The notes beneath the pieces are model-generated. The model did no database searches, was not told the DNA's origin, and was given only the letters and a program-made list of their open reading frames with translations. 64,000 nt of DNA, taken from a bacterium. Its GTDB lineage: Bacteria > Cyanobacteriota > Vampirovibrionia > Obscuribacterales > Obscuribacteraceae. How positions within the stretch are numbered: the first letter of the stretch is position 1; every line of letters starts with the position of its first letter. The stretch covers positions 62,001-126,000 of the forward strand of contig JAGOSY010000001.1 of NCBI GenBank assembly GCA_018062085.1, in the 5' to 3' direction. Shown here one piece after another: positions 45,091 through 51,106 of this stretch. Both the position numbers and the translations under genes were made by a program.

Positions 45091-45583
45091 TGTCAGGCCC
45101 TTTGTAGGGTGGCGTAGTTTTTCTCTCAACAATTGTGGTCATCAGCTGTTTGTGACCTTCCGCGAGCCTATAGAGCAGTTCTATGACTGCCTCTTGACCA
45201 GCAGCGGTGAGAGTTTCGACACCCTCCACCAAAGTAATGAGAACTTTGCCTTCGTGGAGAAGTCTCTCTAAAATTGCTCGCAACTCAACCACACGATCAT
45301 CTCGGTAATGCACAAAGCGATTGAGATCGAAAGCAATAATGCCATCATATGTATGAAGAGATGTCAGAGCTTCTTGCAATCCCAGACCAGGATCACCCTC
45401 ATCGACATGAGAGAACCCTGCAAGGTTATGGCCGTGTTCACGGCAATATTGCTCAATCAAGCGACGTTGTTCATCGTTGTCAACGCTACAACCGGCGCTA
45501 CGAACATAGCCAATTAAACGAAGTTTTCTGTGTAGCAAGGCTCTATCCTCGACTGGTACTCTTTTCCTTCTCTGCTTGCTCAC
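45077..45583 (-). CDS. Resolvase-like domain protein lacking the catalytic serine
   Basis: A 168-residue protein with a serine-recombinase N-terminal fold: LIGYVRSAGCSVDNDEQRRLIEQYCREHGHNLAGF, then DGIIAFDLNRFVHYRDD and LLHEGKVLITLVEGVETLT. In active recombinases the first strand reads YxRVSTxxQ with the nucleophile Ser; here the aligned position is Ala (YVRSAG), and no DNA-binding tail follows, so it should not cut DNA. It overlaps both neighbours (41 and 14 bases), in a stress cluster, not near any mobile element. Probably a repurposed domain. Confidence 0.72.
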   Translation of the reverse strand: MSKQRRKRVPVEDRALLHRKLRLIGYVRSAGCSVDNDEQRRLIEQYCREHGHNLAGFSHVDEGDPGLGLQEALTSLHTYDGIIAFDLNRFVHYRDDRVVELRAILERLLHEGKVLITLVEGVETLTAAGQEAVIELLYRLAEGHKQLMTTIVERKTTPPYKGPDNDDW

Positions 45584-46061
45584 TAGATGGCTGCGCTGCC
45601 GCTACATTGCTGTCTCTCGGCAAACGCACCACTGTGACAGTACATTGAGCATGCGATACCACTGCCAGCGAAACACTGCCTAGAACAAAACGAGTAAATC
45701 CTTGTCTACCATGAGAACCAAGCACAATCATGTCGCTGTGCCATTCTTCGGCAATATCTAAAATAACGTGATGGGGGTGACCCTTAATCACATTCACTTC
45801 AACAGGAAAAGCCGTGCCAAACTTAGCTTGCAGCTGCTCTCTCATCTGATTCAACATCAGCGAGCCATCATTTAAGCGCTCTTGTACAATCTCATTCTCA
45901 ACTCCGTTACCATACACTGCTGTGACCTGATCACCCACCACCGATGGTTCGACCACGTGCACGATGCGGAACATCGTTCCGGCCTGCCATTGATGGGCAA
46001 CAAGAAAATCGACAATGGCTTTGCCGAAGCGCTTATCTTCAATTGCAACAAGAACACGCAT
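45543..46061 (-). CDS. Universal stress protein, ATP-binding type
   Basis: A 172-residue single-domain UspA protein starting MRVLVAIEDKRFGKAIV. The nucleotide site GSHGRQGFTRFVLGS gives G-x2-G-x9-G-S, which marks ATP-binding members. A Pro/Ser/Glu-rich tail follows. The start at 46061 has GAGGTG about 7 bases ahead; the frame opens earlier at 46121, overlapping the ATPase gene. The end overlaps the resolvase-like gene by 41 bases. Confidence 0.9.
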   Translation of the reverse strand: MRVLVAIEDKRFGKAIVDFLVAHQWQAGTMFRIVHVVEPSVVGDQVTAVYGNGVENEIVQERLNDGSLMLNQMREQLQAKFGTAFPVEVNVIKGHPHHVILDIAEEWHSDMIVLGSHGRQGFTRFVLGSVSLAVVSHAQCTVTVVRLPRDSNVAAAQPSSEQAEKEKSTSRG

Positions 46062-46117
46062 AGAGAGCACCTCAAATCTGTTATTAACTAGATTGTCATA
46101 ATAGCGACCAAAAGCCA

Positions 46118-48949
46118 TCAATCAAGGGGATGATCACCTAGCAAATGAGTTTTACACATACGTAAGTATAGTTTTCGCAATTCATCCAAAATTATGATTA
46201 CCGGTGCCCAAAGCAGGGCAAAACACCACTCACGAACGCCCACCGCTGCAGTATTGAAAATATCTTGCACGAACGGCACATAAATCAAGACAAGCAGCAA
46301 TAGCAACTCTGTGGCAATACCAATAAGAACCAGTTTGTTGCTGAATAATCCAGCACTAAACAGAGAGCGTCTGTCACTGCGGCAGCAGAGAACAGCACCG
46401 GCCTGCGCAGCAACAATACCCATTAAAGTCATGGTCGTAGCCATCTTATAAATATCGCTGCCGGCTTCAGCCAAAGGAACACTAGGCCAACCGTGCAAAT
46501 AATTGACATAGAAATAGCAGGACATTCCTGCCGTTGCTTCTATTAATCCATACCAAAGTAGGGCCCGAGCAAGCAGAGGTAAATCAAGCAGTGGCTTACT
46601 CAAATCGCGCGGAGGGCAATTCATCAAACCAAGCTCGGCGGCCTCTGTGCCTAAACCTAAGGCTGGCACCATATCGGTACCAAGATCGACTGAGAGCACC
46701 TGCATCACTGTCAATGGTAGAGGAATAGCACCCAAGCTAAATAAAGTGACAACGAAAGGCACGGCTTCAGCCATGTTGCTATTAAAGACATAAATAGCAA
46801 ACTTTCTAATATTGGCATAGACAGCCCGGCCAAGCTCAACAGCACTAACAATAGAAGCGAAATTGTCGTCGGTTAAAATCATATCGGCCGACTCGCGAGC
46901 AACATCACTGCCTGAAATTCCCATAGCAATACCAATATCGCCCTTGCGCAAAGCCGGGGCATCGTTTACACCATCACCAGTGACAGCAACAATCAAACCA
47001 AGAGACTGAAAAGCAGTGACGATACGCAACTTATGCTCAGGTGTCACTCGAGCAAAAATGACATTATCGTGAAGATGCTGACGCAAGACACCCTCATCAA
47101 GAGTATCTAACTCACGACCAGTAATGACACGACAGTGGTCTCTTACTATGCCGACCTTGCGGGCAATACTCTCAGCAGTAAGACCGTAATCACCAGTGAT
47201 CATAACAATCTTAATACCAGCGCTGTGGCATTTTTGCACAGCTTCAGCCACACCTTCATGGGGTGGGTCCCACATGGCCACAAGCCCAGAGAACGAAAGC
47301 TCAACTTCAAGTGATTCAGGAGCTAAATCACAGCCAATTGGCAACACTCTTTGAGCCATGGCCAAGACCCGCAACCCTTCTCTGGCATAGCGATCATTAG
47401 CGGCCATAATGGTCTGACGATCGCTCTCTTGCATCGGTCGAGGCCCGTCTGAACTCTCGAAAATCGTGCAACGAGTAAGCACCTCTGCTGGTGCCCCTTT
47501 TAAATAGAGGACGCGTGAACCCTTATGATCATAAACAGTGCTCATGCGCTTGCGAACAGAATCGAAGGGAATCTCGCAAATTCTTGGCACATCAAAAAAC
47601 TGATGCTCTTGGCCAATGCCACCCTTACGTGCAGCCACAAGGAGAGCAGCTTCAGTAGGGTCTCCTAATATCTGCCACGCGCCAACCTCAGCATCTGACT
47701 TTGGTGGCGTCAACCTAGCGTTGCTACAACACAAACTAGCAGTCAATACTTTCTCAAGAATTTCTCTCTCTATAAGAGTTTTGCCACCGTCTGTTGTCGG
47801 CTCCTTAAGTGTCGAGTCATTTAGTCTTGTTTCATCTAGTTTTTTGATCTCACCCAAGGGTGAATAACCGAGACCACTCAGTTTATATTCAGCACCTTCG
47901 GTCCAAATATGCTGCACAGTCATTTTGTTTTGAGTAATCGTACCGGTTTTGTCTGAGCAAATAACATTGGTGCAACCGAGTGTTTCCACCGCCGATAACT
48001 TTTTGATTAAAGCATTGCGCTTGGCCATTTGCTGCACACCCAAAGCCAGCGACAAACTGATAGTCGGCAACATACCCTCTGGTACAAAGGCCACGACCAT
48101 TCCTATGGCGAAGATAAATCCTTCGCGTGGATGAACATGAGCAAACAGCACAGCCAATAAGAAAAAGAAGGTACCAACAGCAGTGGCAAGAATACTTACC
48201 ACCTTTGTCACCCGAGCCATTTCGTTTTGCAGCGGGCTAGACTGCTCACTAACAGATTGCGTCAAGCGGGCAATCTTGCCAAAGCGTGAGTTCATACCGG
48301 TCTTGCAAACCACGGCTCGACAGGTACCAGCAATAACACTAGTACCAGCAAACAATAAATTACCTGCAGAAGAGTCATTGACCGCCAGAGCTTCTGCCAA
48401 CTTTCGCACAGGCCGAGCCTCACCAGAAAGAGTCGACTCATCAACTGCCAACCTTGATGCGCTGACGATTCGACAGTCAGCAGAAATAGCATCACCTTCA
48501 GCTAGCACGATAATATCGCCAGGCACCAACTGCTGAGCTGGTATGAGAAGCTCTTGGCCAGACCTAATTACATGAGCATTAAGTGGCAACAGACTAAGTA
48601 GTGCTTCAGTAGCTTTGCCAGCCTGAAACTCTTGCCAGAAGCTAAAGCAGCCGTTAATTATATTGACCATCCAGACAGCAATACCAAGCTGAGGCATCCC
48701 CGCCACAAAGGCTAGGGCTCCGGCAACCCAAAGCAACCAAGCCATTAGATGTACGAAATTAGCAAAGAATACTTTTACCAGCGACTTCTTAGTCAGCGCC
48801 TTAATTGTATTCAAACCATAGAGCTTCAGGCGTTCATCGACTTGGGCTGAACTGAGCCCATCGGCAGTAGTATCAAGAACCTCAATTGCTGCAGACGGGT
48901 CAAGGTTTTCTATGCAAGCCAGATCTTTAAGCTGCGAGGCGATGGCCAT
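46118..48949 (-). CDS. P-type (P2) cation-transporting ATPase
   Basis: A 943-residue ion pump. The phosphorylation motif CSDKTGTITQNKM lies near residue 320 with PEGMLPTISLSLALG before it, KGAPAEVL in the nucleotide domain, and TGDGVNDAPALRKGDIGIAMG in the hinge. About ten transmembrane helices with an N-terminal actuator and a C-terminal pair block fit the P2A/P2C group (Ca2+ or Na+/K+-like). The specific ion is not decided by the motifs that I can read. The start is ATG 48949; a TTG lies nine bases before. Lies between Usp genes, with gaps of 32 to 56 bases, so likely in their operon. Confidence 0.92.
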   Translation of the reverse strand: MAIASQLKDLACIENLDPSAAIEVLDTTADGLSSAQVDERLKLYGLNTIKALTKKSLVKVFFANFVHLMAWLLWVAGALAFVAGMPQLGIAVWMVNIINGCFSFWQEFQAGKATEALLSLLPLNAHVIRSGQELLIPAQQLVPGDIIVLAEGDAISADCRIVSASRLAVDESTLSGEARPVRKLAEALAVNDSSAGNLLFAGTSVIAGTCRAVVCKTGMNSRFGKIARLTQSVSEQSSPLQNEMARVTKVVSILATAVGTFFFLLAVLFAHVHPREGFIFAIGMVVAFVPEGMLPTISLSLALGVQQMAKRNALIKKLSAVETLGCTNVICSDKTGTITQNKMTVQHIWTEGAEYKLSGLGYSPLGEIKKLDETRLNDSTLKEPTTDGGKTLIEREILEKVLTASLCCSNARLTPPKSDAEVGAWQILGDPTEAALLVAARKGGIGQEHQFFDVPRICEIPFDSVRKRMSTVYDHKGSRVLYLKGAPAEVLTRCTIFESSDGPRPMQESDRQTIMAANDRYAREGLRVLAMAQRVLPIGCDLAPESLEVELSFSGLVAMWDPPHEGVAEAVQKCHSAGIKIVMITGDYGLTAESIARKVGIVRDHCRVITGRELDTLDEGVLRQHLHDNVIFARVTPEHKLRIVTAFQSLGLIVAVTGDGVNDAPALRKGDIGIAMGISGSDVARESADMILTDDNFASIVSAVELGRAVYANIRKFAIYVFNSNMAEAVPFVVTLFSLGAIPLPLTVMQVLSVDLGTDMVPALGLGTEAAELGLMNCPPRDLSKPLLDLPLLARALLWYGLIEATAGMSCYFYVNYLHGWPSVPLAEAGSDIYKMATTMTLMGIVAAQAGAVLCCRSDRRSLFSAGLFSNKLVLIGIATELLLLLVLIYVPFVQDIFNTAAVGVREWCFALLWAPVIIILDELRKLYLRMCKTHLLGDHPLD

Positions 48950-48981
48950 ACCTATCAATTATATTAGTCATGATCCTTAAA

Positions 48982-49911
48982 TCAGTCGTACCAGCCAGCC
49001 TTGAGTAGCACTGTTTCGCCTTTAAACAGCGGCCTGATAAACTCTTCAGGCCATAGCAGGATAGACTCAAATGCCACCCGCCGCAGCAGGGCCGTGGGGC
49101 ACTCACCAGTAGAAGTAATGCGGTGCTCACCTGAGTCGATAGTCGGCAATACAATAACGCGACCGTGATCGACTGCATTTTTCATTTGACTGAAATTCAA
49201 GAGGCCTCCGTCGTCAGCCAAAGGCACTATCTTTATACATTCTTCTTCTATTTCATCATCAGCTGCAACTAAGTCGCGCACAAACGCAGCGGCTGGCTCT
49301 TCATGCACTCCCGACGCCAAAATTGTCACACTATAATTGGCACCAACAGCAAGGGCAGAGTGCATGCAATTTTTTAGCCAATTAATGTTCATATGATCCA
49401 TCGAAACAAAAATAGCAAACTCAGTAATTGCTTGAATTGGCTTCTGCACAAACAAAATTGGAATCGGTGACAAGTGAGCCAAGCGTTCTGCGCGTGAGAG
49501 CTTTATGCCTTGGCAAGCCGGATAATCAACAGCTGCGCGTTTGCGATAACCGACCACCAATAGATCGTGGGCAGAAGCTAACTTACAGACCTCTTCGACG
49601 GGGTCACCTTCAGAACAAATAAATGTAGAATCGACATGATGAGCGGCAGCCCGAGCTGTATATGAATCTTCCAGCTTACTAGCAATAGCTCGCAGCGACT
49701 GACAAATGCTCTCGTACGCTGCGACATAAGGCCCAGAACCAATTAAGCCAGCCTTTTCTTGCCCCAAAAACTGCAGTGTGCCAAAAAGATCAATTGTATG
49801 TTGCGCCGTTACTTTCGACTGATTCCTACTGGCCAAAGACCAAACAAATTCCGAAGCAAAAAGCGACTCAGGCGAACCATTGATTGGCAGCAGAAAAGAA
49901 CCAGGTTTCAT
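48982..49911 (-). CDS. Tandem universal stress protein
   Basis: A 309-residue protein of two UspA domains, paralogous to the one at 42698 (SFLLPINGSPESLFASEFVWSLAS at the start, LLVVGYRKRAA near 125, and EFAIFVSMDHMNINWLKNCM opening the second domain). As there, the ATP-loop glycine pattern is not complete. The ATG is preceded by GGAG with a spacing of six. First gene of the stress cluster running to 42336. Confidence 0.85.
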   Translation of the reverse strand: MKPGSFLLPINGSPESLFASEFVWSLASRNQSKVTAQHTIDLFGTLQFLGQEKAGLIGSGPYVAAYESICQSLRAIASKLEDSYTARAAAHHVDSTFICSEGDPVEEVCKLASAHDLLVVGYRKRAAVDYPACQGIKLSRAERLAHLSPIPILFVQKPIQAITEFAIFVSMDHMNINWLKNCMHSALAVGANYSVTILASGVHEEPAAAFVRDLVAADDEIEEECIKIVPLADDGGLLNFSQMKNAVDHGRVIVLPTIDSGEHRITSTGECPTALLRRVAFESILLWPEEFIRPLFKGETVLLKAGWYD

Positions 49912-50447: not shown

Positions 50448-51026
50448 CTACTCACGGCCTACTCCCAAACCATCGGCCACACGATTAATATAATTGAACC
50501 ACGAAGCTATAAGATTAATCTGCAATATCGCCGTATCATCAAAGCCTGCCGCCCGCAAAGCATCAATGTCAGCGCGACAAACTTGGGCCGGCGTTAACGT
50601 CAATTTCGCTGCATAATCAAGCATAACTAGCTCTTCTGCGGTGATTGGAGCAGTACGGTAGTCTTTCTTAATAGCCTCTTTTAGCGACTCATCCAGAGTG
50701 ACGCGACGGAGAAACTCCGTATGAGACTCCAGTCAGTAAAAGCACTTATTTAGCGTCGACACTGTGCCAGCAATAAGCTCATGCTGACGGCGAGAAAGTG
50801 GCAGTTGCGGATCCATCAACTTGGCAAAGGTAGAGAAGGCATGGCGTAGAGCCTCAGGTATGAGACTATGGGCCATGACAATGCCCGCACCCTCATCTTT
50901 ACTGTCAGCATCACCCAGAGCCTCTACAGGTATTCTGTATTCAGCTGGATACTGGCTCATGGACTCGGCCAAAATCTCTTGTAGCAAAGTTGATTCTGAT
51001 ACTGGGCATGTCTTGATCCAGGTCAT
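50448..51026 (-). CDS. AhpD-like peroxidase with in-frame TGA: probable selenoprotein
   Basis: Read through one TGA (50733-50735), the frame gives a 192-residue alkylhydroperoxidase-like protein (peroxidase-related group). Both halves fit the family without a gap: upstream LRHAFSTFAKLM...LSRRQHELIAGTVSTLNKCFY, downstream LESHTEFLRRVTLDE..., APITAEELVMLDYAAKLT, then ALRAAGFDDTAI and WFNYINRVADGLGVG. The TGA stands exactly where the family has the second Cys of CxxC (CFYC.xSH), making CxxU. A hairpin follows 12 bases after the TGA. The rest of the frame has no other stop up to TAG 50448. Without recoding only 97 residues would be made, lacking half the domain. Start ATG 51026 with GGGAG ahead; a TTG precedes it. 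Alternatives are a nonsense mutation or a base error. Confidence 0.78.
50695..50730 (-). promoter_or_regulatory. Candidate bacterial SECIS hairpin after the TGA
   Basis: On the minus strand, ACGGAG (50720-50715) pairs with CTCCGT (50711-50706) around a UUU loop, and an outer helix GGAGT/ACTCT closes it. The apex lies about 20 bases after the TGA, inside the coding sequence, as bacterial SECIS elements do. Opened by two pairs, the loop becomes AGUUUCU with a G at position two, which SelB binding favours. Only a model: no covariation can be checked here. Confidence 0.45.
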
Positions 51027-51106
51027 CAATTATTCTCCCAAAGTAACAAGCTGATTGGCACGCTAAAATCATGCAATTGTATTGCATTTAGAACCAAGGA
51101 GAGACA

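Follow-up and report, generated by a model that had tools for sequence, protein, structure and literature searches.

AhpD-like selenoproteins with a CxxU motif (COG2128/TIGR01926) were described from the Sargasso Sea in 2005, with 27 sequences (PMC1088965), and 'AhpD-like 1' selenoproteins from GOS in 2008, with 299 sequences (PMC2398784); AhpD-like selenoproteins also appear in Table 1 of a 2026 review (PMC13188914). The AhpD relay comprises Glu36/Cys48/Tyr50/Cys51/His55 in PA0269 and Glu118/Cys130/His132/Cys133/His137 in Mycobacterium tuberculosis AhpD (PMC3141380). For the RNA signal, the bacterial SECIS model requires a spacing of 16-37 nt, an apical loop of 3-9 nt, a stem of 4-16 bp, a G within the first two loop positions and an MFE of -7.5 kcal/mol or lower (PMC13188914). 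Cyanobacteria have been described as being without selenocysteine (Sec) (PMC9312934). The initial annotation of the locus reported here held that Sec-containing AhpD-like proteins were known and that a case in this lineage would be new; in the open-licence literature searched, Sec use in Obscuribacterales was nowhere described, but a single Sec protein recorded under Melainabacteria has already been mentioned in passing (PMC9529120).

The gene lies in the window, the whole stretch of 64,000 nucleotides that was analysed, which is part of an assembly of 5.83 Mb in 80 contigs (88% complete). The host is an uncultured, non-photosynthetic relative of cyanobacteria, and its named relatives are Candidatus Obscuribacterales MAGs, including Ca. 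Obscuribacter phosphatis, within the Melainabacteria, the sister group to Cyanobacteria. Reading through the TGA gives a frame of 192 residues on the minus strand (51026 to 50448), which contains this single TGA, is open on either side of it and translates around it as NKCFYULESH (Table 1). The initial annotation had the coordinates 50448-51026 and the frame open around a single TGA at 50733-50735 right, and the strand is added here. It had also foreseen what standard gene calling makes of the locus, namely a mere 98-codon ORF, begun at an in-frame TTG slightly upstream; standard annotation would thus give the AhpD-like selenoprotein gene as a fragment.

Table 1. Features of the Sec-containing AhpD-like gene and its RNA element (positions in the window; + numbers count from the TGA).
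Feature	Position	Strand	Remarks
Sec-containing AhpD-like (TIGR01926) gene	50448..51026	minus	192 aa with TGA = Sec (predicted); TIGR01926 4e-34
Shine-Dalgarno-like GGGAG	51035..51039	minus	8 nt 5' of ATG, read directly from the sequence
Start ATG	51026-51024	minus	open frame
In-frame TGA, predicted Sec98, second Cys of CxxC (C95-F-Y-U98)	50733..50735	minus	
Hairpin 1, ACGGAG-UUU-CUCCGU	50706..50720	minus	+13 to +27 after TGA, apex +19 to +21; pair probability 0.97
Hairpin 2, inner stem ACUC/GAGU, loop UGGAU (+38 to +42)	50684..50704	minus	pair probability 0.93
Nucleotide-frozen block ACTCTGGATGAGTC	50686..50699	minus	codons 110-113 and first two bases of 114
Stop TAG	50450-50448	minus	open frame

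Neither a sigma-70-like promoter nor a terminator was found around the gene. Beyond close relatives it has no recurring neighbour, and membership of an operon was rejected on this ground. Two universal stress proteins around a cation P-type ATPase lie downstream (window 45543-49911, minus strand), a neighbourhood common, within the flanks compared, only to the closest relative.

The product matches the peroxidase-related, AhpD-like family model TIGR01926 over residues 51-190 at 117.9 bits, above the curated cut-off of 81.8; all 15 aligned members match this model, and the full product also matches PF02627. Gapless alignments to 2pfx, 3c1l and 6k40 span the TGA and place it on the second Cys of CxxC, in agreement with the earlier proposals that both halves match one AhpD-like domain without a gap and that the TGA occupies this position. 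These three structures are also the top PDB matches (6k40, 3c1l, 2pfx) of an AlphaFold2 model with a pLDDT of 84.8. AhpD sensu stricto (TIGR00777) scored 22.9 bits, far under its cut-off of 191.95. The profile NF041238, AhpD_rel_CFYUT (seleno)protein, holds in its family name the CFYU motif that the Obscuribacterales product also has. Membership of that family was rejected at 67.5 bits, below the cut-off of 175; residues 46-190 were covered, and the match begins only at position 175 of the 357 in the profile.

The residues E83, C95, Y97, U98 and H102 have a spacing identical to that of the AhpD relay. E83, Y97, position 98 and H102 are invariant in alignment A1, and C95 is present in all except one Cys form. 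The product is best read as an AhpD-like (TIGR01926/COG2128) enzyme, predicted to be a peroxidase or thiol-disulfide oxidoreductase, whose active site would be Cys95-Phe-Tyr-Sec98. By analogy with AhpD, Sec98, which falls where M. tuberculosis AhpD has Cys133, would attack peroxide or a disulfide; Cys95 would then form a selenenylsulfide and so resolve the selenium intermediate, and the enzyme would be re-reduced by a dithiol donor. The attacking and resolving roles are ones that we presume from AhpD chemistry. Glu83, Tyr97 and His102 would correspond to the proton relay of AhpD.

A lone in-frame stop of this kind is also what a dead peroxidase would present, in which TGC or TGT had mutated to, or been misread as, TGA, and standard annotation would call the gene broken. 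However, the TGA form was found in 14 of the 53 Obscuribacterales genomes, always at the same codon and at 60-96% identity (the copy in G009, which is split across two contig ends, is counted among them), and the same TGA is present outside the order in Armatimonadota-labelled MAGs (L060, L062) at 57-65% identity. A TGA common to 14 genomes is no sequencing error. Purifying selection is similar in the two halves of the gene, with pN 0.27 and pS 0.79 5' of the TGA and pN 0.22 and pS 0.88 beyond codon 116, which indicates that the 3' half is translated. Close homologues, had they all stopped here, would have spoken for a broken gene; they continue instead. Synonymous sites, moreover, are frozen solely behind the TGA. 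With the TGA and the 3' half both conserved, a pseudogene or base error was rejected and appears exceedingly improbable.

The initial annotation had proposed searching the host genome for selA, selB, selC and selD, and all four were found in the host's own assembly. The tRNA-Sec scored 69 bits, its TCA anticodon being confirmed by ARAGORN, SelA scored 526 bits and SelD 350 bits. SelB, of 844 aa, exceeds the TIGR00475 cut-off and contains SelB wing_2 and wing_3 (winged-helix) domains; its gene and the window share one contig. This SelB (L096) is unusually long, with acidic and Ala/Ser-rich stretches separating its domains. Directly 3' of selD (L013, G000:C4) lies yedF (TIGR03527), the two forming a selenium-metabolism gene pair.

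Across the order selA was detected in 38 of the 53 genomes and tRNA-Sec in 42. All 14 TGA-form genomes carry selA (hypergeometric p = 0.004) and 13 of them carry tRNA-Sec, the one without a detected tRNA-Sec being G050, an assembly in about 470 contigs. Enrichment of tRNA-Sec among the TGA-form genomes was not significant over the 53 genomes (p = 0.14), a comparison that is uninformative because tRNA-Sec is common across the order. The only Cys-form genome among the 53, G026, has two homologues with TGC at the TGA codon and lacks both selA and tRNA-Sec; the comparison with Cys homologues suggested in the initial annotation thus falls in favour of Sec. The two G026 paralogues, L030 and L042, are both Cys forms, and L030 is a TxxC form (THYC) that has lost the first Cys too. 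A tree of the Sec and Cys forms was unresolved and gives no direction for Sec/Cys exchange.

A frame that is open and conserved across its TGA would also be expected if the codon were translated as something other than Sec, by plain readthrough or by reassignment of TGA to Cys, Trp or Gly. Against this, the only TGA of the frame falls at the catalytic Cys position, selA accompanies the TGA form and Cys stands in its place in the genome without selA and tRNA-Sec, and an RNA element is frozen 3' of the TGA; such decoding is therefore very improbable. Sequence shows the Sec machinery, the conservation of the TGA and of the active-site residues, and the tandem hairpins described below, and the gene almost certainly encodes a selenoprotein with Sec98 at the UGA. 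The UGA would be read by tRNA-Sec brought by SelB and guided by the RNA signal immediately downstream.

The gene belongs to a distinct subfamily, which in a pattern-based scan across 84,980 species turned up only in Obscuribacterales and in a few MAGs that are labelled Armatimonadota or have no label; the genomes of L060 and L062 carry tRNA-Sec with the anticodon TCA. A phylum-wide sample of 386 genomes gave only two further matches, L070 (TGA form) and L071 (Cys form). L070 is 44% identical and is located on a 70%-GC contig, which is probably mis-binned foreign DNA. Two other labels are at odds with their sequences: L057 is labelled Chthonomonas, yet has the Obscuribacterales-type frozen block, with no tRNA-Sec above the cut-off in its genome, and L052 is labelled Chloroflexi, yet matches L024 (G050, Obscuribacterales) exactly in the part downstream of the TGA. 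Both contigs are probably mis-binned or mislabelled. The gene is absent from three congeners (G008, G010, G011) and from many other Sec-decoding Obscuribacterales; it is therefore dispensable and does not explain retention of the pathway there, and other selenoproteins must exist in the order.

A second candidate selenoprotein of Obscuribacterales was observed, a TlpA/ResA-like protein with a UxxC motif (SMT-U-HYC / SMT-U-HSC) in L097 (G028:C182) and L098 (G006:C517). Each has a single TGA in a frame of about 310-340 aa, and the two have in common a hairpin, CCCCU-CGUGA-AGGGG, whose loop follows the UGA by about 26 nt.

Two hairpins follow the TGA of the AhpD-like gene. A hairpin with its apex about 20 bases after the TGA had been noted in the initial annotation as lying where a bacterial SECIS is expected; it is present, but it is one half of the RNA element. 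The second and far more conserved hairpin had gone unseen, and SelB may not read the one first noted. Folding covered the region +11 to +60 after the UGA, the mRNA taken to be outside the ribosome while the UGA sits in the A site.

The 11 divergent Sec forms compared share codons 110-113 (ACT CTG GAT GAG) without a single difference, in contrast to none of the 60 invariant-residue codons outside 99-116 being identical in all of these sequences. With a star phylogeny assumed and codon usage taken from the genes themselves, the frozen codons have a probability of the order of 1e-17, a figure made too small by the relatedness of the sequences; the contrast of four frozen codons with 0/60 is independent of it. 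Codons 110-113 differ in the Cys forms.

In most relatives the frozen codons form a hairpin 2 with a 5-bp GACUC/GAGUC or longer stem (GACUC-UGGAU-GAGUC), its loop at a spacing of 37 nt from the UGA and the second loop base a G. The window's own copy has a C-C mismatch (+33/+47), which leaves a 4-bp inner stem. The +11 to +60 fold shows both hairpins in nearly every Obscuribacterales Sec form; the pair probability of hairpin 2 is at least 0.93 in all 13 block-carrying sequences, and hairpin 1 is in the MFE structure of all 13. The sequence and register of hairpin 1 differ between relatives; its loop is GUU in many of them, and several registers occur, with the loop G missing in some species. 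In L057 it has a stem of only 4 bp and a loop of 10 nt, and in L026 and L050 its stem is interrupted. The Cys forms have no hairpin 2, and in place of hairpin 1 they form weaker stems that close 8-nt loops.

Most Sec forms fold more stably than their synonymous recodings (z to -3.7), the window's own sequence giving z -1.8 (p = 0.045), against z about 0 for the Cys forms. The fold was only weakly better than the recodings in L021, L023 and L050, and no better in L028, L060 and L062. When the fold is started at the UGA itself, z is only -0.85 for the window, since the stems then face competition from the first ~10 nt; the +11 start is cleaner. Pair covariation (RNAalifold consensus, pair counts) is modest overall, in part since hairpin 2 hardly varies and the register of hairpin 1 changes. 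L070 has both hairpins in the same places with different bases (CUCGGAG-UUU-CUCCGAG and GUGUCC-CGGGA-GGACGC) at pair probabilities of at least 0.93, which supports a conserved tandem layout.

The Rfam search gave no match to the element. The exact 13-mer ACTCTGGATGAGT occurs once in the host's own genome and 24 times across the order, with 13 of these occurrences 33 nt after the in-frame TGA of an AhpD-like gene; a reversed control pattern occurred once. The idea that the frozen block marks SECIS elements genome-wide was rejected, given the single occurrence in the host genome and the lack of a TGA at +33 in the other 11.

Compared with the bacterial SECIS model, hairpin 2 of the window fits the geometry with its loop UGGAU, 4 bp and a spacing of 37, and hairpin 1 fits it only as a loop GUUUC with 5 bp and a spacing of 17. 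The MFE is -14.0 for the whole of +11 to +60 in the window, where the contiguous single stems give -6.5 and -2.6; hairpin 2 of L017 has an MFE of -9.4. We infer that the SECIS is a tandem of the two hairpins, in which the frozen hairpin 2 is about as likely as hairpin 1 to be the part contacted by SelB. SelB may read the distal frozen hairpin 2 (37 nt), hairpin 1 acting as a structural spacer that sets the distance, a reading that we advance tentatively and at a little under even confidence.

It is a realistic possibility, if not a probable one, that the selenoprotein has hairpin 1 alone as its SECIS and that the frozen block is kept for some other reason, such as a TLDES motif in the protein or a site in DNA or RNA that serves something else. 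Hairpin 1 stands at the classical distance with a GUU loop in many relatives, and the Armatimonadota-labelled L060 and L062, which are without hairpin 2, can form a hairpin 1 of 7-8 bp. A TLDES motif, however, does not explain frozen synonymous sites, and hairpin 1 is itself the part whose register drifts and whose loop G is not universal. L070 retains the position of hairpin 2 and a loop xGG on new stem bases, and the second candidate selenoprotein has a lone 5-bp hairpin with a 5-nt loop and a G at loop position 2, resembling hairpin 2.

The all-helical CMD/AhpD fold of the product is that of M. tuberculosis AhpD (1gu9, 1knc) and Pseudomonas aeruginosa PA0269 (2ijc, 2o4d), to which it is 11-14% and about 25% identical, respectively. 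Both have the same Glu-Cys-x-Tyr/His-Cys-x3-His relay spacing but have Cys where the Obscuribacterales product would have Sec. The nearest solved structures, the Deinococcus radiodurans AhpD-like protein (6k40), Mesorhizobium loti Mlr4105 (3c1l) and a Silicibacter protein (2pfx), are closer, at 30-37% identity and a TM-score of about 0.7; they too are Cys forms of the peroxidase-related family, unlike the predicted Sec product.

The protein type is thus already known, and the newer parts seem to be the use of Sec in this lineage and the tandem-hairpin element. The AhpD-like gene provides one clear client, as predicted here, of the Sec pathway in Obscuribacterales, an order of the sister group to Cyanobacteria, and its conserved tandem hairpin is a testable case of how far a bacterial SECIS may depart from a single stem-loop. 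As in the SECIS consensus (PMC13188914), a hairpin stands directly 3' of the UGA, and the spacing of each of the two falls inside the 16-37 nt range or on its limit; unlike it, the hairpins here are in tandem, the conserved one at the far end of the range, 37 nt. With the marine AhpD-like CxxU selenoproteins the gene shares a score above the cut-off of the same family model, the CxxU motif with Sec predicted at the second Cys, and bacterial Sec machinery. It is set apart by its host, Candidatus Obscuribacterales, by its distinct subfamily and by its tandem of hairpins, the second of them frozen; the comparison with the marine members covers the protein.
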